NCBI GenBank assembly: GCA_028278645.1
Contig: JANQDZ010000060.1
Coordinates: forward strand, 1 to 38,643
Source of the DNA: Longimicrobiales bacterium
Lineage (GTDB): Bacteria > Gemmatimonadota > Gemmatimonadetes > Longimicrobiales > Gaopeijiaceae
Reading direction: 5' to 3'
Length of the DNA: 38,643 nucleotides
Of the stretch, positions 2,615 through 37,847 are shown piece by piece (position 1 is the stretch's first letter; each line of letters begins with the position of its first letter). Under the pieces are notes generated by a model that saw only the letters and a program-made list of their open reading frames with translations, ran no database searches and had not been told where the DNA came from. Position numbers and translations under genes: made by a program.

Positions 2615-5292
2615 AGGGGTGGTTGAGGCGCTGGAGAAAGCGCATCCGGACGCTGCTCCTTAGAGACACTGTGGAACGGGAGCTGGATGAGGAGCTTTCG
2701 TTTCATCTTGAGATGGAAACCGAGAAGAACATTAGGGAGGGCATGACTCCTAGGGAGGCGAGGCGGCAAGCAGCGATCAAATTCGGAGGAATGGAGAGGT
2801 ACAAGGAGAAGGTCCGGGAAGCCCGGACTTTGGGATGGGTGCCAGGGATGTCGTTGGACTTCAAGCTGGGTGCTCGGATGCTCCGCAAGTACCCGGGCCT
2901 CACTGCGGTAAGTGTTCTTGCCGTGGCCTTCGCGATCGCCGTTGCCGCGATTTCATTCGAGTTTTTCACCCAGATCGTCATTCCCCGCCTTCCGTTTGAA
3001 GACGGGGATCGGGTGGTCGCAATCGTCATGCAGGACGCAGCATCGGGAGCCGAGGAATCCCGTATCCTGCACGACTTCGAGGGGTGGCGCAGGGACCTGA
3101 AGACCGTCGAGGACCTCGGAGCCTACCGGGCCATATCGTCCAACCTGGTCGTGGGTGGTGGGCCCGGTACTCCAGTGTCGGGCGCGGAGATCACCGCCTC
3201 AGCGTTTCGCCTGGCACAGGTGCCGCCCTTGCTCGGGAGAACCCTTGTTGAGTCGGACGAGCAACCCTCGGCCCCCCCGGTCATCGTGATCGGGCAAGAG
3301 GTCTGGCAAGCACGATTCAATGAGGACCCCAACGTCCTTGGGAGGGAGGTTAGCCTCGGTTCCACCACCCATACCATCGTGGGCGTCATGCCGAAGGGTT
3401 TCGGGTTTCCGGTTGCCCAGCGGGCGTGGGTCCCATTTCGATTTAGTTCACTCGGCTACGAGATGCGGCAAGGCCCCGGTGTGAAGGTCTTCGGCCGACT
3501 CTCGCCTGGGGTCACGGTAGATGAAGCTCAGGCGGAAGTGACTACGGTGTTGACCCGGTCTGCTGCCGATTCTCCCGAAACTCACCAACACCTCCGTGCT
3601 CGGGTACTCGCGTACCCGCACTCCGTCGTCAGCGTGTTTGGCCCTGAGATCGTCGGCCTTACATCGATCAACCTGCTGATCACATGTCTTTTGGCGCTTG
3701 TGTGTGGAAACGTCGCACTGTTGTTCTTCGCGCGTGCTGCTTCTCGGGAGAGCGAAATAGTCGTGCGGGCCGCCCTAGGGGCCTCCCGGCGGAGGCTAAT
3801 CACACAGCTGTTCATTGAAGCCTTGGTCATGGCGGGTGTGGCCGTGTTCATCGGGGCGATTGCCGCTCAGCTTTCCTTGCGGTGGTTCGTCGATGTTCTG
3901 GGGACTGAATTCTTCGGTGTCGGCGGAATCCCATTCTGGTTTAGGGCCAGCCTTTCCCCTGGGACCTTCCCCTATTTGGCCCTGTTGACAATCACCGCGT
4001 CTGGGCTTTCTGGAATCCTCCCTGGTATCAAAGTCACCCGAGGACTCGGCACCCGCCTAAAGGACGTGGGGCAGTACGGCGGGGAGTTGCGTTTCGGAGG
4101 GGTATGGACTGCTTTGATCGTTACTCAGGTCGCGGTGATGGCTTTAGCACCAATCTTCCTATTCATTATCAGTGGGGAGTCTTCGGGCATTCGATCCAGG
4201 TTCAGTACCGTGGGGTTCCCCACCGAGGAATACCTAACGGCTACCATTGGGATGGACCTGGAGGTGATGCCAGGGGTGTCGGACACCGTAGCCGCAGCGG
4301 ACTTCCTGGCTCGATACCTGGGTTCATACCAGGAACTCGGACGGCAGCTGGAAACGGAACCCGAAGTCATCTCTGTGACCTTCGCTGATCGGCTCCCCCT
4401 GACGTACCATCCCCATCGTCGCATTGAGCTCGACGATGGCCCAGCCGCACCCATTGACGAGCAGCTAGGGCACCGCCGGGTGACCTCGGCCAACGTTGCC
4501 GTCAACTTCTTCCAGACCCTAGATGCGCCGGTGCTCCTGGGCCGCGGATTCGACGACATTGATCTGAACCCGGACGGTCGAGCGGTCGTCGTGGACGAAA
4601 AATTCGTCGAGAAGATGTTGGGTGGAAGCAGCCCGATCGGACGACGTTTTCGCTACCGCTACTTTGAGGAGTTGGAAAGTCCCAGATCCGGCGATGAGCC
4701 ATGGTACGAGATCGTTGGAGTCGTCAGGAACTTGGGCATGCGGTGGGCCGGGATCTACCATCCGCTCATCCCCGAATCTACCTACCCAGTCCGTGTGGCC
4801 ATTCACTTAAGGGGGGACCCGCTACTGTTCGCGTCGAGGCTGCGGACCATGGCCACGGCACTTGACCCGAACATCCAATTGCATCGGGTGGTTAGTCTCG
4901 ATTCAGTAAGGGCCGCCGACCTCAGCGTGTACCGGATGTGGTTTTGGGTCACGGTCCTCGTGACCTCGGTCGTGATGGTTCTCTCACTGATGGGGATCCA
5001 CGCTGTCCTATCATTCGTGGCCACCAGGCGAACGAAGGAAGTGGGGATTCGAATGGCCCTGGGTGGTCAGTCTTGGCGGGTGATGGCGCCGATATTCCGT
5101 CGCCAGATGGTTCAGGTAGCGATTGGCATCTTGGCCGGGTTGTTCATCGCCGGAGTCTTATCGACCAGGCACATCATCCCAGTTCTGGGCTATGGCAGCG
5201 TGATTATCCTGGTCTGTTCAATCGCGACCGTGGAACCGGTGCGCCGAGCGCTCCGCGTCCAGCCCACGGAAGCTTTACGGGTGGATCAATAA
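2611..5292 (+). CDS. ADOP-type FtsX/MacB-like permease, second tandem copy (893 aa)
   Basis: Full-length orphan permease. The ATG at 2611 is chosen because it overlaps the previous stop (ATGA), has GAGGG about 7 bases upstream, and begins the prefix domain (MKGWLRRWRKRIRTLL, then an ELDEELSFHLEME helix). The frame stays open further upstream, inside the first gene, but that extension is unlikely to be translated. Order: cytoplasmic prefix (about residues 1-75), linker RYKEKVREARTLGWVPGM, first membrane helix, MacB_PCD-like core, FtsX block (SEIVVRAALGASRRR), second core, FtsX block (RTKEVGIRMALGGQSWR). The family usually transmits ATPase-driven motion to the periplasm; no nucleotide-binding domain is encoded here. 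Diverged from its neighbours except in the prefix and linker. Stop overlaps the next start by one base (TAATG). Confidence 0.93.
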   Translation: MKGWLRRWRKRIRTLLLRDTVERELDEELSFHLEMETEKNIREGMTPREARRQAAIKFGGMERYKEKVREARTLGWVPGMSLDFKLGARMLRKYPGLTAVSVLAVAFAIAVAAISFEFFTQIVIPRLPFEDGDRVVAIVMQDAASGAEESRILHDFEGWRRDLKTVEDLGAYRAISSNLVVGGGPGTPVSGAEITASAFRLAQVPPLLGRTLVESDEQPSAPPVIVIGQEVWQARFNEDPNVLGREVSLGSTTHTIVGVMPKGFGFPVAQRAWVPFRFSSLGYEMRQGPGVKVFGRLSPGVTVDEAQAEVTTVLTRSAADSPETHQHLRARVLAYPHSVVSVFGPEIVGLTSINLLITCLLALVCGNVALLFFARAASRESEIVVRAALGASRRRLITQLFIEALVMAGVAVFIGAIAAQLSLRWFVDVLGTEFFGVGGIPFWFRASLSPGTFPYLALLTITASGLSGILPGIKVTRGLGTRLKDVGQYGGELRFGGVWTALIVTQVAVMALAPIFLFIISGESSGIRSRFSTVGFPTEEYLTATIGMDLEVMPGVSDTVAAADFLARYLGSYQELGRQLETEPEVISVTFADRLPLTYHPHRRIELDDGPAAPIDEQLGHRRVTSANVAVNFFQTLDAPVLLGRGFDDIDLNPDGRAVVVDEKFVEKMLGGSSPIGRRFRYRYFEELESPRSGDEPWYEIVGVVRNLGMRWAGIYHPLIPESTYPVRVAIHLRGDPLLFASRLRTMATALDPNIQLHRVVSLDSVRAADLSVYRMWFWVTVLVTSVVMVLSLMGIHAVLSFVATRRTKEVGIRMALGGQSWRVMAPIFRRQMVQVAIGILAGLFIAGVLSTRHIIPVLGYGSVIILVCSIATVEPVRRALRVQPTEALRVDQ

Positions 5293-7943
5293 TGGGTCTG
5301 ACGAAGCGTTGGATAAAGCGCATCCGGACGTTGGTCCGACGAGATGTCGTGGAAAGGGAGCTTGACGAGGAGCTGGCATTCCACCTGGAGATGGAGACGA
5401 AGAAGAACCTCCAGGCCGGGATGACCCCGGAGGAGGCCCGAAGGCATGCTGCGATCAGGTTTGGTGGCGTAGATAGGTACAAAGAGAAGGTCCGCGAAGC
5501 TCGGACTCTGGGGTGGGTGCCAGGGATGTCGTTGGACTTCAAGCTCGGGTTCAGAGTACTGACCAAGTATCGAGGCCTGACGACCGTCAGTCTCTTCTCG
5601 ATGTCAATCTCTGTGGCAGGTGCCGGCGGTTTCTTCGCGTTCACTAACAACTTCGTCAACCCCAAGCTCCCAGTGGAGGAGGGTGACCGGATCGTGGCGA
5701 TCCAGAGCTGGAACGTCGCCACGGGTACCTTCGAGAACCGCATCCTTCACGACTTCGTCGGTTGGGAAACCCAGCTTGAATCGGTTCAGGACCTCGGCGT
5801 ATTCAGTTTCTACGAGCCAAATCTCATCACTGAAGGAGGCCGGTCCGAGCCCATCCGCGGCTCAAAGATCAGCGCTGCAGCCTTCCGTATCACACGAACT
5901 TCTCCACTCCTGGGGAGGACCCTGGTTGAGGCGGACGAGGAGGCCGGAGCTGAAGCAGTTGTCGTGATCGGGTTCGACCTCTGGCAAGACTTCTTCGCCG
6001 GTGACCCTCAGGTGGTGGGCAGGGCTATACAGGTCGGACCTTCTCCTCACACCATTGTCGGCGTAATGCCTGAGGAGTACGGCTTCCCGTTCAATGACAA
6101 CTTTTGGGTTCCCTTCCGAGAAAGCCCGTTGGACTGGGGACGTCTCTCAGGTCCGGGCATAACGGTTTTCGGCAAATTGGCACCCGGGATTACACTCAAC
6201 GAAGCCCAGACCGAATTATCCCTCCTTGGCCGGCGGACCGCAGCGGAGTTCCCCGAGACGCATGAGCTTCTCCGGCCCCAAGCGGTTCCGTTCGCAAAGG
6301 GCATGGTAAGCCCGCCAACGGGAGTCGCGTTTGGAGGACGCTTGATACTGGTCCTCCTCCTCCTTGTCGTAAGCGCAAATGTCGGCGCTCTCATTTTCGT
6401 TCGAAACCTATCCAGGGAAGGTGAGATTACCCTGAGAGCAGCGCTGGGCGCGAGCAGGAGACGGATCGTTTTTCAACTCTTCGTCGAAACCCTCGTCCTG
6501 GCGTCAGTGGCATCTGTGGTAGGGCTGTTTCTTGCCTCGCAGGGGATCGGTTGGTTTTCGGAGGTTCTCCAGAAGGAGATGTTCGGACGCAGCGGCCTCC
6601 CCTTCTGGTGGCGTGACGGCATCGGGCTTAGCACCCTCATCTTCGTCGGCCTTCTTACGCTGCTTGGGTCTGCCGTGTCCGGCCTTCTTCCCGCTCTTAC
6701 CCTGACCCGTTTTCAATTGGGGTCGCAGGTTCAGAACCGGACTACTGGAGGGTCCTATCTCCGGTTCGGTAGGAAGGCAAAGCTGGCAATCGTCGGTCAG
6801 ATAACTCTCTCGGTCGGCCTCCTGATGACCGTTTTCGAGGCGTGGCCGGACCTGGTAGAATCGGAGGCCGAGATCCTGGGGCTCATTGCTGAAGAGTACC
6901 TCTCAGCCCGCCTCATGGTGAGCCAGGACTCCGGGGCCGGGGAGGATCCTACTGGTGCCGTTGGGAGGCTCTCGAATGCTCAGCAGGAATTGGAGAGGCT
7001 TCTTTTCGAAGAACCTGAGGTTTCCGGGGTGACCTTCGCCAGTTCACTTCCTGGGACACCACACAGGCGCCAGGCCATCGAACTCGAAACGGACCCAGCC
7101 GGATCGGTTCATTCGCGGGCCCGCACTGCCCAGGTGGATGCCGATTTCTTCACGGTGATGGGTGCTCCGCTGCGTGCCGGTCGAACCTTCAACGCCGGAG
7201 ACCTCTATTCGGATGGCTCAGCTCTCCCCGTGGCCATTGTCAATCAATCGTTCGTCCGAACACGATTCCAGGACCGAAACCCGATTGGCCAACGCCTGCG
7301 AATCCTCGGCGCGGATGGGGATCCCGGGCCCTGGCTGGAAGTTGTCGGAGTAGCAGGAGACTTCGGGATGGACCTTTATAATCCGAGTGGACTCTACCTC
7401 CCCCTTACCCCTGGCACCTTGCCACTTCGCCTGGCAGCCAGACTGAACACCGACCCGGCCAACTTCACAGCCCGCCTCCGCTCAGCAGCAACCTCAGCGG
7501 ACCCGGAACTCCGGATGGTAGAAGTGCGGACCATGGCAGCGGTCCTGGCAGAGGCACGAATGCCAAACAGAATCATGTTCACGGGGTTATTCGTGGCAAC
7601 CTTCGTAGGACTTGCCCTGACTTTGAGTGGCGTCTACGCATTGATGTCCTTCTTCGTGTCCAGACGGATCAGGGAGATCGGCATCCGTGCAGCGATAGGA
7701 GCAAAGCCAAGCCGCCTTGTCGTCAACATCTTCTCGCAGGCTTTGGTCAGGCTCGGCACAGGTGTGGTTTTCGCGGCGATCATGAGTCTTCCCTTCACAG
7801 CCATCGTCCTCGAAGGCGGTAGTGTCGGAACCTGCATGAAAGTCTCTGCAGTGATCGTAGTCGCTGGGCTCCTAGCATGCTTGGGGCCGACTCGACGGGT
7901 ACTGAAGGTTCAGCCGGTTGAGGCGATCCAAGTCGAAGGGTAG
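5292..7943 (+). CDS. ADOP-type FtsX/MacB-like permease, third tandem copy (883 aa)
   Basis: Third member of the coupled tandem array. The ATG at 5292 shares its A with the preceding TAA. An in-frame extension upstream exists but lies inside the second gene and lacks domain similarity. The prefix domain (MGLTKRWIKRIRTLVRRDV, ELDEELAFHLEME) and linker (RYKEKVREARTLGWVPGM) are nearly identical to those of the other two copies, while the periplasmic cores are much more diverged. FtsX signatures: GEITLRAALGASRRR in the middle and RIREIGIRAAIGAKPSR near the C terminus. Three paralogues in one transcription unit suggest a complex of several such subunits or specialised copies; both are inferences. 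No ATPase gene follows: the next genes belong to the cobalamin island. Confidence 0.93.
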   Translation: MGLTKRWIKRIRTLVRRDVVERELDEELAFHLEMETKKNLQAGMTPEEARRHAAIRFGGVDRYKEKVREARTLGWVPGMSLDFKLGFRVLTKYRGLTTVSLFSMSISVAGAGGFFAFTNNFVNPKLPVEEGDRIVAIQSWNVATGTFENRILHDFVGWETQLESVQDLGVFSFYEPNLITEGGRSEPIRGSKISAAAFRITRTSPLLGRTLVEADEEAGAEAVVVIGFDLWQDFFAGDPQVVGRAIQVGPSPHTIVGVMPEEYGFPFNDNFWVPFRESPLDWGRLSGPGITVFGKLAPGITLNEAQTELSLLGRRTAAEFPETHELLRPQAVPFAKGMVSPPTGVAFGGRLILVLLLLVVSANVGALIFVRNLSREGEITLRAALGASRRRIVFQLFVETLVLASVASVVGLFLASQGIGWFSEVLQKEMFGRSGLPFWWRDGIGLSTLIFVGLLTLLGSAVSGLLPALTLTRFQLGSQVQNRTTGGSYLRFGRKAKLAIVGQITLSVGLLMTVFEAWPDLVESEAEILGLIAEEYLSARLMVSQDSGAGEDPTGAVGRLSNAQQELERLLFEEPEVSGVTFASSLPGTPHRRQAIELETDPAGSVHSRARTAQVDADFFTVMGAPLRAGRTFNAGDLYSDGSALPVAIVNQSFVRTRFQDRNPIGQRLRILGADGDPGPWLEVVGVAGDFGMDLYNPSGLYLPLTPGTLPLRLAARLNTDPANFTARLRSAATSADPELRMVEVRTMAAVLAEARMPNRIMFTGLFVATFVGLALTLSGVYALMSFFVSRRIREIGIRAAIGAKPSRLVVNIFSQALVRLGTGVVFAAIMSLPFTAIVLEGGSVGTCMKVSAVIVVAGLLACLGPTRRVLKVQPVEAIQVEG

Positions 7944-8235
7944 CAGATCCGCCTTCGAAGTTCGCCACTCCAACCTTCCCGCCTAACCCCGGCCGGTCCG
8001 CCCTCGTCCGTGGCTTGCCCAACGCTGGCCTTCCTGGGCCTACTCCACGCACGCCGGATAGGCGTGCGGCTCCTGTCAGGACCGCTTGTTCATCCTACGC
8101 AGACTGGACCCGGTGCCGCCCAGGACCTTTTCAGCCGTCCAGGAAACCTTCGTGTTGCCGTGCGGTTTCGTCTGATTCTGGCCACCCACTTTCGGGATTC
8201 AAAACCTCCCCATATACTTCCCTCGAAGTTGTTGA
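7944..8235. other. Intergenic region between permease array and B12 riboswitch
   Basis: No supported gene: open frames here are short and their translations look non-coding. It contains one perfect hairpin (8048-8068, listed separately) and presumably the promoter of the B12 operon. I could not identify convincing -35/-10 elements. Confidence 0.5.
8048..8068 (+). terminator. Perfect 8-bp hairpin without U-tract
   Basis: CGCACGCC, loop GGATA, GGCGTGCG. It lies 105 bases after the last permease stop. Stem and loop size fit a terminator or mRNA 3' end, but no T-run follows, so intrinsic termination is uncertain. Confidence 0.3.
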
Positions 8236-8345
8236 AGTAGGCCGGTTGGCGGGGGAAGTCCGGTGTGAATCCGGCGCTGTGCCGCAACGGTATGGCCTCT
8301 CTTGGAGAGGCTGAGCCCGAGCACCCGCGATCCAGGCTTTGCGAA
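8236..8345 (+). promoter_or_regulatory. Cobalamin (B12) riboswitch upstream of DUF6580 operon
   Basis: The core matches the cobalamin aptamer: GGGGGAAGTCCGGTG (from 8251), then TGAATCCGGCGCTG, then GCCGCAACGG (8281-8290), a hairpin GGCCTCTC...GAGAGGC, and a B12-box-like GAGCCCGAGCACCCGCG (8313-8329). The order is the same as in the E. coli btuB leader, though the optional P6-type CACTG...GGGAAG element is not evident. The start codon of the next gene is about 80 bases downstream. Expected behaviour is repression of the downstream operon when cobalamin is abundant (established for the class). Exact ends are approximate. Confidence 0.9.
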
Positions 8346-8427
8346 TAACCGCTCACGAGCATGGGCTGGATCGTTCTTTTTTCCCGCCTCGTGCTTCCTG
8401 GGCCCAACGTGCTCTGGAGGTACTCCG

Positions 8428-9006
8428 ATGGATGGTTCGTTCCACTCCATCCGCGATTCGATCACCAACAAGATCCAGGATCCTGAAGTCAGGCATTCGC
8501 TGTTGTTTGCCGTTGCTTCTGTGGTGGTTGGCCTGAGTCTCTTTTTCCCCCGGCCCCAGAATTTTGCGCCCATCGGAGCCCTTGGGCTTTTCGCCGGTGC
8601 CTTTGCTCGCTCTCGGCATGCTTGGTTGTTTCCTGTTGGTGCCTTGGCAGTTCACACCGTGGCAATTGGTGGATACCACTGGGTCGTGTTGGGATCGGTG
8701 GCTTTGGGGTTCTCCATGTCCGGATTCATCGGCCAACATTGGATCCGGCACCGGGTCCGCCCGTTGCGGATCGGAGCGGCAGCCGTCTGCACGAGCGCGG
8801 GGTTCTTCTTCATTTCGAATCTCGGAAGTTGGGTCACTTTCGGGATTCCGAGGGGGGAATCACTTCTGCACCACTATATCCTGGGTCTTCCCTTCTTCTG
8901 GAACACCCTCCTCGGCGATCTCTTCTTCTCCACCGTACTGTTCGGAGGGTTCGCGGCATTAGCGGTTCGGAGGCCGAAGCCCGTGGGGCATGGAGCCCGG
9001 CCATGA
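8428..9006 (+). CDS. DUF6580 family putative membrane transport protein (192 aa)
   Basis: Small polytopic inner-membrane protein with about five hydrophobic segments. The ATG at 8428 is chosen because GGAGG (8416-8420) sits 7 bases upstream and the B12 riboswitch lies before it; a longer in-frame start would fall inside the riboswitch. Family-typical features: NFAPIGALGLFAGA (residues 45-58) in a loop-helix, then ISNLGSWV (about 129-136), then LPFFWNTLLGDLFFS (154-168). DUF6580 proteins are annotated as putative transport proteins resembling ECF S components. Placed directly behind a cobalamin riboswitch and before a BtuF-like gene, it is the only inner-membrane candidate in this island, so a role in cobalamin or cobamide-precursor uptake is plausible but inferred. 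The stop overlaps the next start (ATGA). Confidence 0.85.
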   Translation: MDGSFHSIRDSITNKIQDPEVRHSLLFAVASVVVGLSLFFPRPQNFAPIGALGLFAGAFARSRHAWLFPVGALAVHTVAIGGYHWVVLGSVALGFSMSGFIGQHWIRHRVRPLRIGAAAVCTSAGFFFISNLGSWVTFGIPRGESLLHHYILGLPFFWNTLLGDLFFSTVLFGGFAALAVRRPKPVGHGARP

Positions 9007-9674
9007 AACCCCGGGTTGTTGTTTCCTGGAGTACTGGCAAGGACGCGGCTTGGTGCCTCCACGCCCTCCGGGCCACCGGAGAGGCGGAGGTGATCGGTCT
9101 GTTCACAACCGTAACATTGGCATTCAGGCGGGTCTCAGTACATGGAACCAGAGTGGATGTACTGAAAGCGCAAGCCAACCGACTCGGACTGCCGATCTGG
9201 GCCGTGGACATCCCCTACCCCTGTAACAACGGGGACTATGAAGCGGCAATGGCTGAAGCGGTGAACGGGCTGGTGGAGGAATGGGCCCCAACCCATGTGG
9301 CCTTCGGGGACCTTTTCCTGGAGGACGTCCGGACCTACCGAGAAGAGCGTCTGGCTCCGACACCTCTCGATCCCCTCTTCCCGCTCTGGGGACGGGATAC
9401 TGGTGCCCTGGCCGACGAGATGCTTGCTGAGGGGCTGGAAGCCGTGATCGTGGCGGCGCAACAAGAATCCGGTGCGGGACCCTTTGTGGGACGGCGGTGG
9501 GACGCCCAGACCTTGGGCCTTCTCCCCACTCATATCGATCCATGCGGCGAAAACGGGGAGTTTCACACGTGCGTCGTGGGTGGGCCGGGATTTGAGCCAT
9601 TGCCCTACGAACTGGGAGAAACCGTTGAAAGAGACGGTACCCGATTTTGCGACCTCTTCATACAAGAGAAATGA
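9003..9674 (+). CDS. Dph6-like PP-loop ATP pyrophosphatase (adenine nucleotide alpha hydrolase family, 223 aa)
   Basis: Cytosolic N-type ATP pyrophosphatase related to diphthine-ammonia ligase (Dph6/DUF71). The PP-loop appears as SWSTGKDAAW (residues 8-17, the SxGKDS pattern with Ala replacing the final Ser). The family signatures FGDLFLEDVRTYRE, PLFPLWGRDT and the C-terminal DPCGENGEFHTCV are present. Bacteria do not make diphthamide, so the bacterial members do something else, probably ATP-dependent amidation or adenylation of a small molecule. Its coupling on both sides (ATGA at 9003 and ATGA at 9671) inside a B12-riboswitch operon suggests a job in cobamide handling, such as amidation of a corrinoid side chain; that is a guess from context. 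The family is sure, the reaction is not. Confidence 0.88.
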   Translation: MKPRVVVSWSTGKDAAWCLHALRATGEAEVIGLFTTVTLAFRRVSVHGTRVDVLKAQANRLGLPIWAVDIPYPCNNGDYEAAMAEAVNGLVEEWAPTHVAFGDLFLEDVRTYREERLAPTPLDPLFPLWGRDTGALADEMLAEGLEAVIVAAQQESGAGPFVGRRWDAQTLGLLPTHIDPCGENGEFHTCVVGGPGFEPLPYELGETVERDGTRFCDLFIQEK

Positions 9675-10582
9675 ACATTGTCTCTCTTCTCCCGAGCGCG
9701 ACGGAGATCGTCGCTGCCCTTGGACTTACCGAGAATCTCGTCGGAGTCACTCATTCCTGTGACTTCCCCGAATCGGTCAAGGACCTCCCCCGAGTGACTT
9801 CCACGGTGATTCCAAAGGAAGCCACGAGTAGACAGATCGATCAAGCCGTCAAGGACTCACGGGCTCAGGGGGCACCTCTTTACGAGATCGATATCGATCT
9901 CCTGGAGTCTCTCGCTCCAGACCTCCTGATCACGCAGGGGGTTTGTGACGTTTGCGCAGTCTGTGAAATGCAGGCGTTGGCAACCCTTCCAGACATGGCC
10001 CTGGAGCCAAGGGTTTTGAATCTCACTCCCCATCGCCTCCAGGATGTCCTGAATGACGTGGTCCTCGTCGGAAGAGCCGCTGGTATCGAGGAACGAGCCT
10101 GGAAGCTCGTGGAGGAATCCCGGCAGAGGATCGAGAAAGTGGAACGCCGAGTCGCTGGCCTGGAACCGGCTTCTGTTGTTGTTCTGGAATGGATCGACCC
10201 TCCCTTTTCCGCCGGCCACTGGACTCCGGACGTGGTTGAGTTAGCGGGAGGGTTCGAACCGCTGGCAAAAGCCGGAGCTCGCTCCCGCCAACTTCAGTGG
10301 GAGGAGGTTCTTCAGGCCGATCCTGAAGTCCTGGTTCTGGCTTGTTGCGGCCAGGGCATCGATCGAGCGATGCATGACTGGGACTATCTCCGACGCCAAC
10401 CGGGGTTTGAAGGTATTCGGGCTGTTGCGAGCGGCTCGGTCTTCGTGGCAGACGGGGCTGCCCATTTCAGTCGGCCCAGCCTGCGGCTCATCGATGCTCT
10501 TGAGCTGCTAGCAGAGTCCGTTCACCCCAGGTGCAATCCCGAAGCTCGATCACTGTCCCGTGTTAGCAGTTTTTTGGCGTAG
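9671..10582 (+). CDS. Leaderless cobalamin-binding protein, BtuF-like (303 aa)
   Basis: Periplasmic-binding-protein fold of the helical-backbone metal/cobalamin type (BtuF/FhuD superfamily). The ATG at 9671 overlaps the previous stop (ATGA). The protein starts directly with the mature-fold sequence NIVSLLPSATEIVAALGL and has no signal peptide or lipobox, unlike E. coli BtuF, so it may be cytoplasmic or exported by an unrecognised route. THSCDFP follows at about residues 28-33. A cysteine cluster CDVCAVC (92-98) is notable, as is VLEWIDPPFSAGHW. The homologous fold appears to end near RLIDALELLAE; the last 20 or so residues look like a non-homologous tail whose DNA overlaps the second riboswitch. 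BtuC and BtuD are absent nearby. Confidence 0.88.
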   Translation: MNIVSLLPSATEIVAALGLTENLVGVTHSCDFPESVKDLPRVTSTVIPKEATSRQIDQAVKDSRAQGAPLYEIDIDLLESLAPDLLITQGVCDVCAVCEMQALATLPDMALEPRVLNLTPHRLQDVLNDVVLVGRAAGIEERAWKLVEESRQRIEKVERRVAGLEPASVVVLEWIDPPFSAGHWTPDVVELAGGFEPLAKAGARSRQLQWEEVLQADPEVLVLACCGQGIDRAMHDWDYLRRQPGFEGIRAVASGSVFVADGAAHFSRPSLRLIDALELLAESVHPRCNPEARSLSRVSSFLA

Positions 10583-10692
10583 TAGGATCGTGGAATCTGG
10601 TGAGGTGCTCGCCGCTCGGAGAGGCCACTGGGAAGGGATCCCCGGGAAGGCGAGTCGGGCGGCATGGAGCCAGGGGACCTGACCCACCCCAA
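10520..10692 (+). promoter_or_regulatory. Cobalamin (B12) riboswitch upstream of btuB-like receptor
   Basis: The 3' half is clear: GGCCACTGGGAA (10623-10634), CCCCGGGAAGGCGAG (10640-10654), then the B12 box GAGCCAGGGGACCTGACC (10667-10684), as in classical aptamers with the P6 arm. The 5' half is less clear; AGGTGCAATCCCGAAGC (10529-10545) and CTGTCCCG (10553-10560) resemble the expected GGTGCAATCCG...CTGTCCCG core and lie inside the 3' end of the BtuF-like gene. The receptor start is about 97 bases after the box. Class is confident, 5' boundary is not. Confidence 0.82.
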
Positions 10693-10788
10693 ACACACAC
10701 TGATGTCTCCGCGGGGAGGCACGGGCATATCTGGCTTGAATCGGTCGGACCTGCCCTCCCCCTCGCCAGGAGAAAAGGGGATTTCCTA

Positions 10789-12801
10789 ATGGCGAAGACC
10801 TGCGCGGGTAGGCATAACCGTCTCCGTTCTACCGGTCCCGCCGAGGGCCACTTTTATCTCGGCCTCTTCCTCCTTAGCCTCCCCCTTTTTCCTTGCGAAG
10901 GGTCCGCACAGATCCGTCCCATTGAACTGGAGGGTATTGTGGTCACCGGGACACCTGTGCCCCGCACGGTAGGGACGGTGTCATCATTCGTGACCATTCT
11001 GGATGGCGAAGAGCTCCGGTCGCGTGGGGTCACCAGAGTACTGGATGCGCTCGCAGAGGTTCCAGGTCTGGTCGTGGTGCAGGGAGGCTCATACGGCAGC
11101 ATCGCCTCTACCTTTTTCAGAGGAGGAGAGAGCGATCATATGAAGGTGCTGGTGGATGGTGTCGAAATGAACCAGGCCGGCGGGGCTTTCGATTTCTCAG
11201 GCCTCCTCCTTTCGGATGTCGAGCGAATTGAGGTGGTCCGTGGGCCAGCCTCTGCATTCTACGGTTCGGATGCTATGGCGGGTGTCATCCAGGTGATCAC
11301 CCGTCGGGGCCAGGGCCCATTCCAGGCCTCAGTTTCCACTGCTGGCGGGACATTTGGGCGGATCAACTGGGGAGCAGATGTAAAGGGAGGGATGGGCCCA
11401 TCCGGCTACGCTTTTTCCCTCGCCCGGGAATCGACCGACGGAATCCTGGAGTTCAACAATGAGTTTGAAAACACTGCCATTTCTGGAAAGCTCTCCTCCA
11501 ATCCGGATCACCGCACGAGTTTGGCATTGGCAGCTCGTTATTCGGACCGAAGCTTCCATTTCCCCACTGACAATGCAGGAAACGTGGTTGATCAGAACGC
11601 CTTCACTTTTGGTGAAGAATGGGGTGTCCACGCTGAGGCGACGCGGACGGTGTTCGACCGGCTCGAGCTCTTGGCATCGGCGAGGACATACCACTGGAAC
11701 GGAGGATCCGACGATCGATCCGATGGTCCCGCCGATACGCTGGGTTACTACGGTTTCGTGAGTGAAGACGCTTTCCAGCGCAATGCTGGCGACGTAAGGA
11801 TGAAATTCGTGCCTTGGTCCGGGTCTGCCCTTTCTCTAGGTTTTGAACTCGAACAAGAGCAGCAAGATTCCAGGTCGGAGTCGTTGAGTCAGTGGGGCCC
11901 CTCCGAAGGGGAGGACTCCTTCGAGAGATGGAGCCGTGGATATTATGCCCATCTCGGATCAGAGGGTGCCGAGCTGGCCTGGAACTTCGGTGTCCGACTA
12001 GACGACAACGAACAGTACGGCGGCTTCTTCACCTACCAGGCAGGCATCTCCTACTCGGTGTTTTCCAAAGGGACCGTGCTAAGGGCCAATGTCGGAAAGG
12101 GGCTGAAGGAACCGACGTTCCTGGAAACCTCATCCACCGGGTTCAGTACCGGGAACCCGAACCTCAAGCCCGAGAGATCCCATGTGTGGGAGATCGGCAT
12201 CGATCAGGCACTGGGGTCAAGCGGGTCGTCCGCCTCCCTCACCTGGTTCCACCAATCCCTCGAGGACCTCATCCAGTACACTTTCTCGGTGCCGAATCCA
12301 GGTGATCCGAATTTCTTCAACGTTGCTGAGGCCCAAGCGCGGGGTCTTGAGGCGGCTGTCACGGCCCCTTTCGGGGCGCTGACCTTCTCGGGGAGCTACA
12401 CATATCTGGACACCGAAGTCTCGGACTCTGGGTTCGACGAGGGGGAAGGCGCAGTTTTCGTGGAACGGGAGGGTCTCATCAGACGACCGAAACACCAAGG
12501 GGCTATCGGTTTGGGCTACCGCACCCTCCGCGGGACTCTGAGCGGTGAAATCCGTTGGACTGGCTCCCGTTCGGACAGAGACTTCTCCTCATGGCCGGCA
12601 TCTCCGGTGGAGCTCTCAGCGTACGCCCTTGTGGGTCTAGGTCTGGATCTGACCCTTCTCCGGCCAAGGGGTGGTCGGCCTGGGCTGGACCTCACCTTCC
12701 GGGGAGAGAATCTATTTGATGAAGTTTACGAAGGAATCTTCGGGTTTCCGGGGCCCGGAAGGGCCTTTCTGGTTGGGGCGCGAATGAACTTCGGCGGGTA
12801 G
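10789..12801 (+). CDS. btuB: TonB-dependent outer-membrane receptor, BtuB-like (670 aa)
   Basis: Outer-membrane active transporter, most likely for cobalamin given the B12 riboswitch just upstream. The ATG at 10789 is chosen because it begins a signal peptide (hydrophobic FYLGLFLLSLPLF, cleavage near GSA|Q40-41) and AGGGG lies 8 bases upstream; the longer frame would run through the riboswitch. A TonB-box-like ELEGIVVTG (about 47-55) precedes a plug domain with LDALAEVPGLVV, FFRGGESDHMKVLVDGVEMN, and VERIEVVRGPASAFYGSDAM. The remaining roughly 450 residues form alternating strands ending in FLVGARMNFGG, close to a canonical barrel end. Length fits BtuB (about 600) with some loop growth. The substrate rests on context rather than residues. 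Confidence 0.9.
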   Translation: MAKTCAGRHNRLRSTGPAEGHFYLGLFLLSLPLFPCEGSAQIRPIELEGIVVTGTPVPRTVGTVSSFVTILDGEELRSRGVTRVLDALAEVPGLVVVQGGSYGSIASTFFRGGESDHMKVLVDGVEMNQAGGAFDFSGLLLSDVERIEVVRGPASAFYGSDAMAGVIQVITRRGQGPFQASVSTAGGTFGRINWGADVKGGMGPSGYAFSLARESTDGILEFNNEFENTAISGKLSSNPDHRTSLALAARYSDRSFHFPTDNAGNVVDQNAFTFGEEWGVHAEATRTVFDRLELLASARTYHWNGGSDDRSDGPADTLGYYGFVSEDAFQRNAGDVRMKFVPWSGSALSLGFELEQEQQDSRSESLSQWGPSEGEDSFERWSRGYYAHLGSEGAELAWNFGVRLDDNEQYGGFFTYQAGISYSVFSKGTVLRANVGKGLKEPTFLETSSTGFSTGNPNLKPERSHVWEIGIDQALGSSGSSASLTWFHQSLEDLIQYTFSVPNPGDPNFFNVAEAQARGLEAAVTAPFGALTFSGSYTYLDTEVSDSGFDEGEGAVFVEREGLIRRPKHQGAIGLGYRTLRGTLSGEIRWTGSRSDRDFSSWPASPVELSAYALVGLGLDLTLLRPRGGRPGLDLTFRGENLFDEVYEGIFGFPGPGRAFLVGARMNFGG

Positions 12802-12966: not shown

Positions 12967-14547
12967 TCACCTCGACCGGTTTTCGATCCGAACGAAGGGC
13001 GTCTCCAGACGCTCTGCCGCATAGGGGCTCAGGGCGTACCGGAGCCCGTATTGGTCGTGGGACCAGACGTCGTCCATCTCCAGCTCCGCCACTGTCCGGT
13101 ACCGGGTCAACGCCTCTTCCCTCCGGCCCAGCAGGTCCAGGAGATGTCCCTGCCACAACGTGGCCAGGGCCCGGCGGTTGTCCTGTCCTGTCTCCTTCGC
13201 CCACTCCTCGAACCGGGTGAAGACGGCCAGCCCGTCCTGGTACCGCTCTGCGTCGTAGAGGGCGAATCCCAGCCGCAGGTAATCCCGGTAGCCCTCCATC
13301 CGATCCAACCAACCGGCCCCGTACTCGGCCGCCAGCTGCATGGAGGCCCGCCTTCCCCAGTCCACTGCCCGGAGGAGGAACTGGGGTGAGGCCACCAGCT
13401 CCTGGTACCACTGGGTCACGTCGGCCCGGAAGACTGCCAGGGCATCGGGATCCACCGGCTCCAGCCTTTCCATGAACCGCCGGAGGATCGAGAAGAAGGC
13501 ATCGGGCTCCTCATTGTAGATGGAGTGACCTGACTTCTCGAAGACCACCATCTCCCCGTTGGGTTGGTTCGCGGCCAGGGCGCGGCGCTTCTCCTCACCC
13601 CACGTCAGGTCCCACTCCCCTTCCAGGATCAGCGTGGGGATGGGGCTGGATTCGAAGGCGTGGCGCATGTTGATCCGACCGGCGCTCTGGCTCATCAGGC
13701 TGTTGAAGCTCCCGTCGTGGACCCACTCGAAGCGGGCCCCATGGGCGAACTCCTCCGGGGTGGGTTTGTAGTAGTTCTGCCGCTTCCAGTCCCCGTTGAT
13801 GTGGTTGTTGTAGACGATGAGGGCCAGGAGCTCAGCGTCGGTCCATCCCTTCTCCGGTGCCATCTCCTGCAACTGCCGGCTGTAGGTTCGTTGGCGGTCC
13901 AGTTCCTCGGCGGAAATGAAGTCCCGCTGCCTGCTCCGACCCAGGTCCATCCCGGCTCCCGGCGATGCACCCACCAACACCAGCCCCGCCACATTCTCCG
14001 GATACCGGGTGGTGTAGTACTGGGCCAGGAACCCTCCGTAGGAGAAGCCGAGCAAGACGAACTTCTCCCCTCCCAGCGCCTTTCTCAGCGCCTCCAGGTC
14101 CTCCACCGCTTGCTCCACCGAGTAGCCGTCGGGTCCGGGGCGGTAGTCCGAGAGCCCACATCCCCGCTGGTCGTAGTAAACCACCCGGGCGAACTCGGCA
14201 GCACGACTGAACCAGGGATGGAAGCCGTGGTGGGTACCGCCGGGCCCGCCATTGATGAGGACCAGGGGCACCCCTGATCCCTCCTCTTCCACCCACAGCT
14301 CGGCGTCGCCGACGCTGATCCGACGGCCCTGGATTCCCAGCCGCTCTTCCCAGCGGGGGAAGTCGGGGATCTCGGTGATGACCTGGGGCTCCAGGTGGAT
14401 GACCCGGTCGAAGATGGACTCCCGAACCTGGGCATGAACCGGGAGTGCGGCAGCCAGGGCCAGGAGGAGGGCCAGCCCCATTGCGAGGGCCACTGGAGTG
14501 AGTTGCTGGAAGTGGGACCGGGAACTGACTGACGAATCAACCGACAT
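12967..14547 (-). CDS. Secreted alpha/beta hydrolase, proline-iminopeptidase-like, with helical/TPR-like tail (526 aa)
   Basis: S33-type alpha/beta hydrolase. The ATG at 14547 (MSVDSS) has AGGGG 9 bases upstream; an ATG three codons earlier is possible but lacks spacing for a ribosome site. Residues 1-40 form a signal peptide ending AAALPVHA|Q. Motifs: oxyanion segment NGGPGG (99-104), DQRGCGLS (126-133), nucleophile elbow GFSYGG (167-172, Ser169), acid in EGEWD (Asp313), and His341 in SGHSIYNEE. These positions follow the proline iminopeptidase order. The last roughly 150 residues are helical with repeats resembling TPR (YDAERYQDGLAVFTRFEEWA, LLGRREEALTRYRTVAELE), unusual for the family. Likely periplasmic peptide or ester hydrolysis; substrate unknown. 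Divergent from a PadR gene. Confidence 0.85.
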   Translation of the reverse strand: MSVDSSVSSRSHFQQLTPVALAMGLALLLALAAALPVHAQVRESIFDRVIHLEPQVITEIPDFPRWEERLGIQGRRISVGDAELWVEEEGSGVPLVLINGGPGGTHHGFHPWFSRAAEFARVVYYDQRGCGLSDYRPGPDGYSVEQAVEDLEALRKALGGEKFVLLGFSYGGFLAQYYTTRYPENVAGLVLVGASPGAGMDLGRSRQRDFISAEELDRQRTYSRQLQEMAPEKGWTDAELLALIVYNNHINGDWKRQNYYKPTPEEFAHGARFEWVHDGSFNSLMSQSAGRINMRHAFESSPIPTLILEGEWDLTWGEEKRRALAANQPNGEMVVFEKSGHSIYNEEPDAFFSILRRFMERLEPVDPDALAVFRADVTQWYQELVASPQFLLRAVDWGRRASMQLAAEYGAGWLDRMEGYRDYLRLGFALYDAERYQDGLAVFTRFEEWAKETGQDNRRALATLWQGHLLDLLGRREEALTRYRTVAELEMDDVWSHDQYGLRYALSPYAAERLETPFVRIENRSR

Positions 14548-14700
14548 GGGGTCCATCCCCTTTCGGAGTCGTTGGCGAACTTCGGACGCAGATGCGGAGG
14601 AGCCTCCGGGCTCCCTCTTCTTTAGTAGGACGGGCGGCGGCCAGGGTTGGTTTATCCCTCTCTTACGATCCCCTCTGCAACCCTTTCTCATCCTTCCGCG
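14548..14700. other. Leader region of the divergent hydrolase gene
   Basis: Part of the 287-base divergent intergenic region. It holds the hydrolase ribosome-binding site (AGGGG, minus strand, near 14557-14561) and nothing else recognised. Confidence 0.4.
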
Positions 14701-14737
14701 TACTAATAGAGTATCGAGTCTAGAAAATAGACTCAAA
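14701..14737. promoter_or_regulatory. Tandem inverted repeats, likely PadR operator overlapping a minus-strand promoter
   Basis: Two adjacent dyads: TACT-AATAG-AGTA (14701-14713) and a perfect 7+5+7 repeat GAGTCTA-GAAAA-TAGACTC (14716-14734). On the minus strand TTGAGT (14737 down to 14732) and TACTCT (14713 down to 14708) are 18 bases apart, a weak sigma70-like pair that would drive the hydrolase. The half-site AGTCTA/TAGACT recurs in the operator of the PadR gene at 37848. Binding by the adjacent PadR protein is inferred. Confidence 0.5.
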
Positions 14738-14834
14738 TCGCTCCTGACCCCGGGGCCGCCGAACCGAGATGTACCGGACCCGAGGGCTGTGGCCCCCAGC
14801 GCTTTGGCCCTGACCACCCGCACACGGATACACC

Positions 14835-15170
14835 ATGCGTCGCAAAGGATACCTGGGAGAGTTCGAGCAGCTGGTTCTCCTCGCCGCCCTTCGCCTGAAG
14901 GAGGAGGCCTTCGGCCCCGGCATCGCTGCCGAGCTGGAAGAGCGGGCCGGTCGGCGGGTTTCCCGGGGGGCCCTCTACGGCACCCTGGACCGCCTGGAGA
15001 AAAAGGGCTTCCTCAACTGGACCGAGGACGTTGGAGGGCCCGAGCGGAGTGGCCAACCCATGCGTCTGTTCCAGGTGACGAAGGAAGGGCTGGCCGCACT
15101 CCGCGCTTCCAGGGAGGCGGTCCGGAAGCTGGAGGCAGGATTGGAAGAGCTCCTCGGAGAGACCCGGTGA
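14835..15170 (+). CDS. PadR family transcriptional regulator (111 aa)
   Basis: Short winged-helix repressor of the PadR type. GEFEQLVLLAALRL opens the fold; GPGIAAELEERAGRRVSRGALYGTLDRLEKKGF contains the recognition helix (SRGALYGTLDRLEKKG, about residues 43-58), followed by a wing (PMRLFQVTKEG) and a C-terminal dimerisation helix rich in Glu and Leu. Length is standard for the minimal subfamily found next to ADOP permeases. The stop overlaps the permease start (TGATG), so the pair is co-translated. It probably controls itself and the permease through the inverted repeats at 14701-14734; no ligand can be guessed. The ribosome site is weak. Confidence 0.92.
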   Translation: MRRKGYLGEFEQLVLLAALRLKEEAFGPGIAAELEERAGRRVSRGALYGTLDRLEKKGFLNWTEDVGGPERSGQPMRLFQVTKEGLAALRASREAVRKLEAGLEELLGETR

Positions 15171-17896
15171 TGGCAACCCCGCCACCCCTCCTCTCGGCCC
15201 TACTCCGACTCGTCCTATCCGACGACGTGACGGGGCGGAGCATCCATGGCGATCTGGATCAGGAGTTCCGGCAGCGGGCGCGGCGAGACCCGGTGGCCGC
15301 CGCCCGGTGGTATCGCCGTGAGGCTTTGAGCGTTGCGGGCCATACGATGGCCCGGGCAGTGAGCCCAGCGGCCCGTCGTCGCAGGCACCTCGTCTCGAGG
15401 AATGGAAGCAAGGCACGAAAGGGAGACCCCATGTTGCAGGTGTTTTTGAGAGAGCTCCGTTACGCGGTCAGGACGCTGGCCCGATCCCCCCGGTTCACCT
15501 TGGTGGCCGCCTTCACCCTGGCCCTGGGCATTGGTGCCACCTCCTCTATCTTCAGCGCCGTGAACGGGGTCCTCCTGAGGCCCCTCCCCTATCCCCATGC
15601 CGAGCGCATCGTGGGCCTCTGGCACGGGGCGCCTGACCTGGGCTACGAGCAGTTCGGCATCTCTCCCGGGATCTTCTACCACTACCAGACGGAGAACCAG
15701 GTCTACGAGGCCATGGGCCTCTTCGCCCCCACCCAGGAAACCCTCACCGAAGATGCCGCCGCCGAGCGGGTTCAGGCCATCGCTACCACCCGCGGCCTCT
15801 TCGACGTCCTGGGGATTGCTCCCCTCATGGGGCGGACCTTCACCCCCGATGAGACCGACGAGGGGGGCCCCATGGTGGTGGTCATCAGCCATGCCCTCTG
15901 GCAACGGAGGTTCGGGGGTGATCGGGAGATTCTGGGTCGAAGCCTCCGGGTGGACGGGACTCCCAGGGAGATCATCGGGGTCATGCCCCGGGGATTCGAT
16001 TTCGGTGGGGCCAACCGGGAAGCCGAGCTCTGGCTCCCCCTCCGGATGAACCTGGAGACCTCCCCTCCAGGGAGTTTCTCCTTCCAGGGAATCGCGCGCC
16101 TCAGACCTGGCGTTACCCCCGAAGGAGCCGTGGCCCAGGAGGAGGCCCTCCTCCAGCGGATCAGGGAGCAGTACGCCGACTCGGAGGCGTTCATCAACTT
16201 CCTCGACGCCGGTGGTTTCCACCCAATTTCCCACACCCTCCAGGAGGAGATGGTGGGGGACATGCAGCGCCCTCTCTGGATCCTCCTGGGCACCGTCGGG
16301 TTCGTGCTCCTCATCGCGTGCGCCAACGTGGCCAACCTCTTCCTGGTGAGGGCCGAGGGGCGCCAGCGTGAGATGGCGGTTCGTGCGGCCATGGGCGCAG
16401 GCCGGGGCAAGCTGGCCAGCCACTTCCTCGTGGAGAGCTTCGTCCTGGCCGGGGTGGGAGGGGCGGCGGGCCTGGCCGTGGCGTGGTGGGGGCTCCCTCT
16501 CCTGCTGAGAATGGCCCCGCCGGAGCTGCCCCGGCTGGACCAGATCTCCATGGACGGCCGGGTCCTGGGTTTCACCCTGGCGGTGACGGTCCTGGCCGCC
16601 CTCTTCTTCGGGGCGGTGCCCATCCTCCGCTTCCGCATCCCCAAGCTCCTGGGTGTCCTCCGCTACGCCGGCCGGGGCACCACAGAGGGGCGGGAGCGCC
16701 ATCACCTCAGGAACGTCCTGGTGGTGGGGCAGACGGCGCTGGCCATGGTCCTCCTGGTGGGATCCGGGTTGCTGGTGAAGAGCTTCTGGGAGATCCGCCG
16801 GATCGATCCCGGGTTCGAGACGGCCGACCTCCTCACATTCGGGATCATGCTCCCCGAAGCCGATTATCCGGGCCCCTTGGAGACGGCGGCCTTCCACACG
16901 GAGCTCCTGGATCGCCTCGGCGCCCTCCCCGGCGTCCGGTCGGTAGGGGCGGTAAGCAGCCTTCCTCTGGCTCAGTCGGCCTCGGGCACGGCCCACGACA
17001 TCGAGGGCATCCCCACCGCCGAGGGGGAGCTGCCTCCCATGTTCTGGTACAAGTACGCCACCCCGGGCTACTTCGAGACCATGGGGATCGCGGTGGAAAC
17101 CGGCCGGGTATTCCGGCGCTCCGATCACGAAGGCGATTACGGGAACATCCTGGTGAGCCAGGCGCTGGCCGAGCGGATCTGGCCAGACCAGGATCCCATG
17201 GGCCACCGCATCCGAACCACCGGCGATACAGCCGAGGTCGGGTGGAACACCATCGTAGGGGTGGTTGAGAGCACCCGGGACCACGGGCTGAGAGAAGATC
17301 CCATCGAGGTACTCTACTACCCCATGGTGGGACCCAGGGTGGAGGAGGATTATGCCACCCGCCAGCTCACCTACGCCATTCGGGTCCAGAACCCCACCCA
17401 GCTGGTGAGCCAGGTCAGGGATGTGGTCGGGGAGATGGATCCGAACCTCCCCCTGGCTGCCATCCAGACCATGGACGAGGTGGTCTCCGACTCTATCGTC
17501 CGCCTCACCTTCACCGCCCTGGCCCTGGGTCTGGCCTCGTTCATGGCCTTGATCCTGGGGGCGGTGGGTCTATACGGTGTTCTATCGTACGTGGTGAACC
17601 AGCGGACGCAGGAGATCGGGGTCCGCATGGCGCTGGGCGCCCAGGCCGGGCAGGTCCAGGGGATGGTAGTGGCTTCGGGTGCCAAGCTGGCCCTCATCGG
17701 ACTGGTCCTGGGAATGGCGGGGGCCGGTGGCCTCACCCGTCTCCTCCAGGGCCTCCTCTTCGGCACTCAGCCCCTGGACCCCGTCACTTTCGGCGGGATG
17801 TCGGTGATCCTCCTGGGGGTGGGGCTCCTGGCCAGCTACCTTCCGGCCCGGCGGGCAGCCACCGTGGACCCGGTGAGCTCCATGCGGGCCGAATAG
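15170..17896 (+). CDS. ADOP-type permease with PadR-linked prefix domain (908 aa)
   Basis: Orphan FtsX/MacB-like permease. The ATG at 15170 overlaps the PadR stop (TGATG). Residues 1-80 are a cytoplasmic prefix of a different type from the three-gene array (LLRLVLSDDVTGRSIHGDLDQEF...), then FLRELRYAVRTLARSPRFT leads into the first membrane helix (LVAAFTLALGIGATSSIFSA) and the NGVLLRPLPYP motif. FtsX blocks: IACANVANLFLVRAEGRQRE...VRAAMGAGRGK and NQRTQEIGVRMALGAQAGQ. Ends PARRAATVDPVSSMRAE as usual. An internal ATG at 15431 (residue 88) has AAAGGGA in front and would give the permease without the prefix. Function: probable transport or mechanotransmission; substrate unknown. Confidence 0.93.
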   Translation: MATPPPLLSALLRLVLSDDVTGRSIHGDLDQEFRQRARRDPVAAARWYRREALSVAGHTMARAVSPAARRRRHLVSRNGSKARKGDPMLQVFLRELRYAVRTLARSPRFTLVAAFTLALGIGATSSIFSAVNGVLLRPLPYPHAERIVGLWHGAPDLGYEQFGISPGIFYHYQTENQVYEAMGLFAPTQETLTEDAAAERVQAIATTRGLFDVLGIAPLMGRTFTPDETDEGGPMVVVISHALWQRRFGGDREILGRSLRVDGTPREIIGVMPRGFDFGGANREAELWLPLRMNLETSPPGSFSFQGIARLRPGVTPEGAVAQEEALLQRIREQYADSEAFINFLDAGGFHPISHTLQEEMVGDMQRPLWILLGTVGFVLLIACANVANLFLVRAEGRQREMAVRAAMGAGRGKLASHFLVESFVLAGVGGAAGLAVAWWGLPLLLRMAPPELPRLDQISMDGRVLGFTLAVTVLAALFFGAVPILRFRIPKLLGVLRYAGRGTTEGRERHHLRNVLVVGQTALAMVLLVGSGLLVKSFWEIRRIDPGFETADLLTFGIMLPEADYPGPLETAAFHTELLDRLGALPGVRSVGAVSSLPLAQSASGTAHDIEGIPTAEGELPPMFWYKYATPGYFETMGIAVETGRVFRRSDHEGDYGNILVSQALAERIWPDQDPMGHRIRTTGDTAEVGWNTIVGVVESTRDHGLREDPIEVLYYPMVGPRVEEDYATRQLTYAIRVQNPTQLVSQVRDVVGEMDPNLPLAAIQTMDEVVSDSIVRLTFTALALGLASFMALILGAVGLYGVLSYVVNQRTQEIGVRMALGAQAGQVQGMVVASGAKLALIGLVLGMAGAGGLTRLLQGLLFGTQPLDPVTFGGMSVILLGVGLLASYLPARRAATVDPVSSMRAE

Positions 17897-21667: not shown

Positions 21668-21979
21668 AGCGAGACCTCCAGACACGGGTAACGGATACCG
21701 GGACGCCCGGACCAGCCAACCGCACTCGTACCTGGAGGAGCTCCATGCCCTGGTCGTGGCCCCGCGAGGGACCAGGCATGCCTTCGTGGGTCGATTCGGC
21801 CGATTCCCTTCCCTTTGATGTACGAGTGTCGGATAGCGTTGGCTTCAAATCCGGCTCACCTCCCAGGCTCCGGCCTCCGCCGCGGTCCGCGCAAAATCCC
21901 GAAAATCACGTGGAGGGCGTCCGAGGGCTCGATCCACACCGTCGGCCACATACTGGTTTCTTCCAGCCATGAATTCGGT

Positions 21980-22534: not shown

Positions 22535-22558
22535 TGCTCGCAATTGTGCTCGCAATTG
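22535..22558. repeat. Perfect 12-bp tandem duplication
   Basis: TGCTCGCAATTG occurs twice back to back (22535-22546 and 22547-22558). Just downstream GTGCAGGTTGC also occurs twice, at 22564-22574 and 22595-22605. Short duplications of this kind fit a decaying non-coding stretch; no function is suggested. Confidence 0.7.
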
Positions 22559-22650
22559 AGGCCGTGCAGGTTGCTCTGATTGGGGTTTCAGGGTGTGCAG
22601 GTTGCGCGGCCCCCGGCTCGAGTCTACCCAGGCCCATTTTCAGAAACACC

Positions 22651-22691
22651 CGTCCCGCTTGGCCCTTCCGGCCAGCGGGACGTTTTGTTTT
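22651..22691 (+). terminator. Strong rho-independent terminator
   Basis: A stem of 13 base pairs with one bulged T: CGTCCCGCT(T)GGCC, loop CTTCC, GGCCAGCGGGACG, followed by TTTTGTTTT. It reads on the plus strand. The only plus-strand gene upstream is the dead leucine dehydrogenase, so it is probably a leftover terminator of that or another lost gene, and it now insulates the DUF5916 gene. Confidence 0.85.
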
Positions 22692-22935
22692 GGTGGTCGA
22701 GCCCCTTTTCTTGCAGTTCGGGTCCGGGATCGGCTACTCCGGGCCGTTCCATCGCGTTTCGGATGTCAGCAACCGTGACCTGGTCGTAGATCCCTTTCAT
22801 AGTCTCAAAGCTGGTTCCTGCGATCGCCTCTCTCAGGGGGACATATCAATCCCATGGAATTACGAAACCATCGCGTCGGTAACCCCGTCCAATTGGGTGA
22901 ACGAGATCTTTGTGAACTCAACTTGGCCGGTTCTG

Positions 22936-26231: not shown

Positions 26232-26672
26232 ATGGTCCGCGTGCCCACTTCCAGAAGGCTTACGGCTGCTGCAGCCCTGTTGGCTCTGCTCCTCTCCCCT
26301 TGGGGATCTGCGCAGGCGTGCGACCACGCAGACACAGGTGAGCGCCCGGCTGCGGCGGATGGTGGCGTTGACCCCATGTCCGGCGGCGCCCATTCGTGCC
26401 ACAGGGATGGCGTTTCTTCTGTTGGGCAGGAGGAGGTAGCCCAGGGCCTTCCCGAGGGCGTGCCGGTGCCCGGTTTTCAGATAACCGACGTCCAGGACTC
26501 TGAGAGCGAGATGGGTTGCTGCGCCGGCGAATGCTGTGCGTCCCCGGGGATCCCCATGGACCCGAGTCTGTTCGCATCAGTAGCCGCCTCTATCCTCGGT
26601 CAATCCATCAGGTCTCCTTCCAATCTTGTCACCGGCGAGCCTGCCGGGGTTTTCCGACCTCCCATCGTGTGA
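26232..26672 (+). CDS. Small secreted cysteine-rich protein (146 aa), possibly metal-binding
   Basis: Hypothetical protein with a signal peptide (MVRVPTSRRLTAAAALLALL..., cleavage near GSAQA). The mature part has six cysteines: Cys30 with His32, Cys56 with His54 and His57, and a CCAGECC cluster (Cys96, 97, 101, 102); the C terminus ends FRPPIV. The order Cys/His, CC, terminal PP recalls the HYC_CC_PP family encoded next to copper-associated TonB receptors in Bacteroidota; this is a resemblance in layout, not a proven match. The gene is followed after 55 bases by a TonB-dependent receptor in the same orientation, so they probably form one operon. A role in periplasmic metal binding or sensing is inferred. 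Confidence 0.7.
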   Translation: MVRVPTSRRLTAAAALLALLLSPWGSAQACDHADTGERPAAADGGVDPMSGGAHSCHRDGVSSVGQEEVAQGLPEGVPVPGFQITDVQDSESEMGCCAGECCASPGIPMDPSLFASVAASILGQSIRSPSNLVTGEPAGVFRPPIV

Positions 26673-37845: not shown

Positions 37846-37847
37846 GA

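Follow-up and report, generated by a model that had tools for sequence, protein, structure and literature searches.

DUF6580, a membrane protein family with the S-component fold, is a candidate solitary inner-membrane carrier of cobalamin and close corrinoids

Many B12-dependent bacteria have neither corrin synthesis nor a recognisable BtuCDF system, and the transporter that takes B12 across their inner membrane is unknown (PMC6072759; PMC2667541). Xanthomonas axonopodis and Nitrosomonas europaea have been named as such cases (PMC2667541), and a literature search for a B12 transporter of Xanthomonas found none; nothing of use was found on BtuN, a name given to a predicted transporter, either. 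One described system is BtuM of Thiobacillus denitrificans, a solitary S-component-like B12 transporter, and a trapping idea has been proposed for BtuM and BtuR; E. coli is described there as having no ECF module (PMC6072759). Another is the DUF71-B12 subgroup of COG2102, which is defined by an ENGEF/YH motif; it was predicted in 2012 to serve B12 salvage or pseudo-B12 remodelling, and 75 of 102 members were reported to adjoin B12 transporter genes (PMC3541065). Here we analyse a cobalamin island (8227-12801, forward strand) in a DNA stretch of 38,643 nucleotides (the window), which is contig C5 of a 4.9-Mb draft genome of a Longimicrobiales bacterium (G000, 103 contigs). The first gene of the island encodes a membrane protein of the family DUF6580 (PF20221). 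No paper naming DUF6580 was found in a literature search; unpublished or database-only predictions, or papers beyond the reach of that search, may exist. We consider it rather likely that DUF6580 proteins are solitary inner-membrane carriers with an S-component fold which transport cobalamin or close corrinoids by the operon mechanism proposed below.

The DUF6580 protein of the window (8428-9006, 192 amino acids) matched PF20221 with 105.6 bits (curated cut-off 27 bits) over profile positions 7-158 of 162. The family was confirmed in at least 573 places across phyla and was above the cut-off in 14 of 297 Gemmatimonadota genomes. AlphaFold2 predicted an S-component fold both for the window protein (predicted local distance difference test score, pLDDT, 86.3) and for a canonical family member, L078 (pLDDT 95.8), in line with the S-component-like character of energy-coupling factor (ECF) transporters that the initial annotation of the island had seen in the window protein. 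BtuM-cobalamin structures were the top structural matches of the canonical member, with Z-scores of 14.5 and 14.4 and the next S-component at 13.0, and BtuM was also rank 1 in Foldseek. The window protein matched the BtuM structure 8ovv with a Z-score of 14.5 (3.1 Å, 162 residues), which ties with other S-components for its best structural match.

Neighbouring genes were counted in 80 DUF6580 loci from many phyla, and riboswitches were scanned for with Rfam in 32 loci. Genes for a BtuF-like protein and for a BtuB-like TonB receptor were each found at 23 loci, Dph6-like genes at 22 and genes for a PduO-type adenosyltransferase (PF01923) at 6; 50 of the 80 loci had at least one of these B12 neighbours or a riboswitch. 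All ten TonB neighbours that were scanned had TIGR01779, the B12 receptor model, as their best model, each below its cut-off. The Dph6-like gene was present in 16 of the 23 loci with a BtuF-like gene. None of the six adenosyltransferase loci had a BtuF-like gene as well, numbers that are too small to claim mutual exclusion. A B12 riboswitch was found within approximately 6 kb in 16 of the 32 loci (one of the type AdoCbl-II), compared to a chance expectation of about 0.1 calculated from the 66 matches listed for 49 genomes scanned in full, at about 3.8 Mb per genome. The initial annotation had suggested counting how often DUF6580 and B12 riboswitches occur together.

The layout of several individual loci was recorded. 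In L091, from a metagenome-assembled genome (MAG) of Levyibacteriota whose contig is labelled as a candidate-phyla-radiation organism, an AdoCbl-II riboswitch (5342-5411) is followed by DUF6580 (5914-6465) and an adenosyltransferase gene (6428-6991). Pairs of DUF6580 and BtuF-like genes with no detectable B12 riboswitch were present in L028 and in four loci of family f7, genus g77 (L053, L054, L055 and L056); the four g77 loci have a tRNA gene just upstream of the pair, with an equal Rfam score in each. A DUF6580 gene from which about 20 model positions are missing in frame (L029:6804-7358), possibly a decaying copy, was found in G023, a genome with several FecCD matches. In a Vicinamibacterales MAG (L069:6001-6594) the DUF6580 frame is interrupted by a stop codon; beside it lie a btuD-like gene and a BtuF-like gene that is intact.

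The host profile was analysed in a set of 64 DUF6580 genomes, a cross-phylum set of 49 DUF6580 genomes and the 297 Gemmatimonadota genomes. CbiC was missing from 63 of the 64 hosts, so these presumably import corrinoids, and CbiQ/EcfT was missing from 58 of them. A strong match to the permease family FecCD was present in only 16 of the 49 cross-phylum genomes; the remaining matches, weak and of short length, resemble another permease family. Thirty of these 49 genomes had neither strong FecCD nor EcfT, and 24 of the 30 have a B12 riboswitch. Within the Gemmatimonadota, 286 of the 297 genomes had some FecCD match, and DUF6580 was present in five of the eleven without one, all belonging to the sister genus g12 (Fisher p = 4e-5). 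FecCD is absent from five of the seven g12 genomes (G131 and G291 have matches). The riboswitch-linked operons of this genus contain DUF6580 and a BtuF-like gene, usually after BtuB, and B12-binding proteins and enzymes are kept. In the order of Thermomonas DUF6580 is patchy (32 of 150 genomes) and is therefore not a general B12 carrier there. Cobalt was considered as another substrate, as CbiM shares the fold at a lower Z-score, and was rejected because hosts without CbiC presumably have no corrin synthesis to feed.

Based on fold, gene context and host profile we propose the corrinoid-carrier role for DUF6580. At the level of the family, a function as inner-membrane corrinoid carrier is well supported by independent lines of evidence, and the fold of the window protein together with the B12-gene company of its relatives across phyla indicates that it is probably a B12 importer.

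In the window, a probable adenosylcobalamin (AdoCbl)-type cobalamin riboswitch (8227-8379) precedes the DUF6580 operon. A whole-window Rfam scan with gathering scores gave no match, whereas a 5-kb scan recovered it with RF01482 at 45 bits (E = 4e-6; gathering score 50), and the genome-wide scan with RF00174 at 27.7 bits (E = 7e-5). This first riboswitch, just short of the gathering score, is probably genuine and stands directly before a B12-linked gene. DUF6580 is followed by genes for a Dph6-like PP-loop ATPase (9003-9674) and a BtuF-like corrinoid-binding protein (9671-10582), and then by a second, truncated riboswitch (about 10591-10690) and a gene for a BtuB-like TonB-dependent receptor (10789-12801). 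Pfam and NCBIfam matches confirmed this gene set as initially annotated, and the 4-base ATGA overlaps reported among the first three genes can be read in the sequence, joining DUF6580 to the Dph6-like gene and the latter to the BtuF-like gene. Of the two B12 riboswitches of that annotation, the first is supported and the second is incomplete. Positions 10624-10651 of the second align to positions 108-135 of RF00174 (16.8 bits). A composite motif, matched letter for letter at 10624-10679, has this single occurrence in the window and none in 100 shuffles, and it also picks out the riboswitch of a btuFCD operon of the same genome (see below). Compared to intact relatives, the GGAA..GGTG start and the 3' half are kept and roughly 60 nt are gone from the 5' core.

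The Dph6-like protein (PF01902, 75.7 bits) contains DPCGENGEFHT, in which the ENGEF/YH motif replaces EGGE/DxE, and is of the DUF71-B12 type, for which the link to B12 salvage is an already published prediction and not a new one. The BtuF-like protein has a Peripla_BP_2 domain (PF01497, 67.8 bits), and its closest PDB sequence is the vitamin B12-binding protein 5ysc. It starts MNIVSLLPSATEI, with the conserved first strand beginning at residue 2, and no export signal was seen when the translation was read by eye. Because it has no signal peptide, the protein is probably cytosolic, as judged from its sequence. The cleanly modelled DUF6580-linked BtuF-like homologues likewise have no leader and open with the first strand of the domain. 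The BtuB-like receptor has a plug and a barrel (PF00593 and PF07715), and its best NCBIfam model is TIGR01779 (232.8 bits, under the equivalog cut-off). No open reading frame (ORF) for a BtuC permease or a BtuD ATPase was found in 8227-12801.

Outside the island, the window contains six large ORFs of the MacB/FtsX permease type (62-2614, 2500-5292, 4938-7943, 14498-17896, 19229-21685 and 35209-37851), five of which were confirmed by Pfam; 14498-17896 was recognised by eye only. A DUF5916 protein (22546-25665) and, after it, a TonB-dependent receptor that carries a carboxypeptidase-regulatory domain (26626-29136) apparently have no relation to the B12 island.

A complete riboswitch-btuF-btuC-btuD operon is located on contig C39 of the same genome (L025:6937-9820, approximately 153936-156819 of C39, minus strand). 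Its riboswitch (75.9 bits) lies directly upstream of btuF, btuF overlaps btuC and btuC overlaps btuD, btuC matches FecCD with an E-value of 6.8e-94, and BtuF (L025:8723-9652) carries a lipoprotein-like leader. Neither CbiC nor a match to CbiQ/EcfT (PF02361) was found in this genome. With btuFCD present and CbiC absent, the organism of the window is auxotrophic for corrin and has one conventional route of uptake or more. The absence of BtuCD noted in the initial annotation thus holds for the island and not for the genome. A complete btuFCD set under a B12 riboswitch had been named there beforehand as refuting, and finding it removes the premise that the lack of BtuCD calls for DUF6580. The proposal of DUF6580 as inner-membrane cobalamin carrier consequently loses the reason given for it and retains the family-level support from fold, linkage and host profile.

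Several observations weigh against a role as corrinoid carrier. With btuFCD in the window genome, DUF6580 is not required to explain uptake here. A profile of the 64 DUF6580 sequences matched no PDB chain, BtuM included, at E-values up to 10; there is no detectable sequence similarity between the two, and their relation is one of 'works like', not 'member of'. No B12 neighbour was found at 30 of the 80 loci, of which the riboswitch scan covered only a part. Most of the broad DUF6580 genomes are MAGs for which no completeness is given, the FecCD rates there cover DUF6580 hosts only, and the FecCD contrast within the Gemmatimonadota rests on one genus, g12, and perhaps on one event. Finally, five polar residues that hardly vary within the family are exchanged in the window protein (R to L, H to R, D to T, Y to A and C to H), including the Cys that is present in 57 of 64 sequences and is His149 here. 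Because the window lineage replaced these residues, results from canonical members may not carry over to it. These exchanges, the truncation of the second riboswitch and the 75.9-bit riboswitch in front of btuFCD would also suit a history in which BtuFCD of C39 is the real importer and the DUF6580 operon, a leftover in decay or turned to another use, has ceased to transport corrinoids. However, every gene of the island is open, and the order riboswitch-DUF6580-Dph6-BtuF is retained in another genus (L030, genome G007), where the same five residues are replaced (Leu, Arg, Thr/Val, Ala/Leu and His in the two proteins). The ratio of nonsynonymous to synonymous substitution rates between the window and G007 is about 0.3 for DUF6580, which is therefore under purifying selection, and about 0.2 for the BtuF-like gene. 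As far as the sequences allow, this looks like a function kept with a changed binding site and not like decay, and we regard a leftover operon as unlikely.

Import of a B12 building block (alpha-ribazole, dimethylbenzimidazole or another lower-ligand precursor) for cobamide remodelling with the DUF71-B12 enzyme is a further explanation. The S-component CblT imports alpha-ribazole in Firmicutes (PMC8123684, a review), and the prediction of DUF71-B12 in pseudo-B12 remodelling (PMC3541065) and the Dph6-like gene at 16 of 23 BtuF-like loci point in the same direction. In g12, however, DUF6580 sits between BtuB and the BtuF-like gene in an operon without a Dph6-like gene, and in the five g12 genomes without FecCD a corrinoid would then have no inner-membrane route; moreover, the canonical member is closest in fold to cobalamin-bound BtuM. 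We judge such a substrate to be quite improbable. The S-component fold would equally allow DUF6580 to use a shared ECF module encoded at another place in the genome, as the initial annotation had suggested, but CbiQ/EcfT was matched neither in the window genome nor in 58 of the 64 hosts, which makes this very unlikely.

If DUF6580 is a solitary corrinoid carrier, the corrinoid would enter the periplasm via the BtuB-like receptor, as the family of the latter suggests, and DUF6580 would pass it across the inner membrane without an ECF motor. The BtuF-like protein, cytosolic as its missing leader suggests and constantly linked to DUF6580, would hold the corrinoid inside. In other lineages the PduO adenosyltransferase could serve as the internal trap instead, and its position next to DUF6580 fits the trapping idea for BtuM and BtuR (PMC6072759). 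The DUF71-B12 ATPase would take part in salvage, as published, and plentiful cobalamin would shut the operon through the AdoCbl riboswitch, as its model match and position suggest. In the window genome the operon would represent a second route beside the normal BtuFCD. Substrate, direction, absence of ATP coupling and the trapping role are what we infer for this system. The window protein comes from a diverged lineage in which candidate binding residues are altered, and so it may favour another corrinoid. A more far-reaching proposal, which we put forward tentatively and hold to be somewhat less than an even chance, is that an ATP-free membrane step is widespread, in which BtuB, facilitated passage through DUF6580 and a sink in the cytosol (a BtuF-like protein or an adenosyltransferase) that draws the vitamin in replace BtuCDF in many corrin-auxotrophic phyla, and that the exchange of Arg, His, Asp, Tyr and Cys (Cys to His) in the window lineage reflects a different corrinoid or cobalt ligand. 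For DUF6580, an uncharacterised family in many phyla, fold, gene context, riboswitch control and host profile point to the role of the missing transporter, and a signal-less BtuF homologue as internal sink would, if true, be a new use of the periplasmic-binding-protein fold.

Compared to the known systems, the window operon resembles BtuCDF in having a BtuF-like protein and a BtuB-like receptor, and differs in the lack of a permease and an ATPase and in its signal-less BtuF-like protein, in contrast to the lipoprotein-type BtuF encoded on C39. Like the DUF71-B12 members, the protein encoded at 9003-9674 shows the ENGEFH signature and has B12 transport genes as neighbours, whereas the passages of PMC3541065 that were consulted mention no membrane partner resembling DUF6580. 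The ECF S-components FolT, RibU, ThiT, BioY and CbrT share their fold with DUF6580 (Z-scores of 10-14 for the solved ones that were matched), but unlike ECF transporters DUF6580 occurs in hosts of which 58 of 64 are without EcfT. BtuM has an invariant cobalt-ligating Cys80, whereas the near-invariant Cys of DUF6580 is at another chain position and is His in the window protein; DUF6580 commonly has a signal-less BtuF-like protein and DUF71-B12 as partners, and its transport function is deduced from fold, context and host profile, whereas transport by BtuM has been demonstrated. The two nevertheless have the six-helix S-component fold in common, and for both the hosts are of the Gram-negative type, lack an ECF module and often BtuCDF, and carry the gene next to btuB, an adenosyltransferase gene or both.

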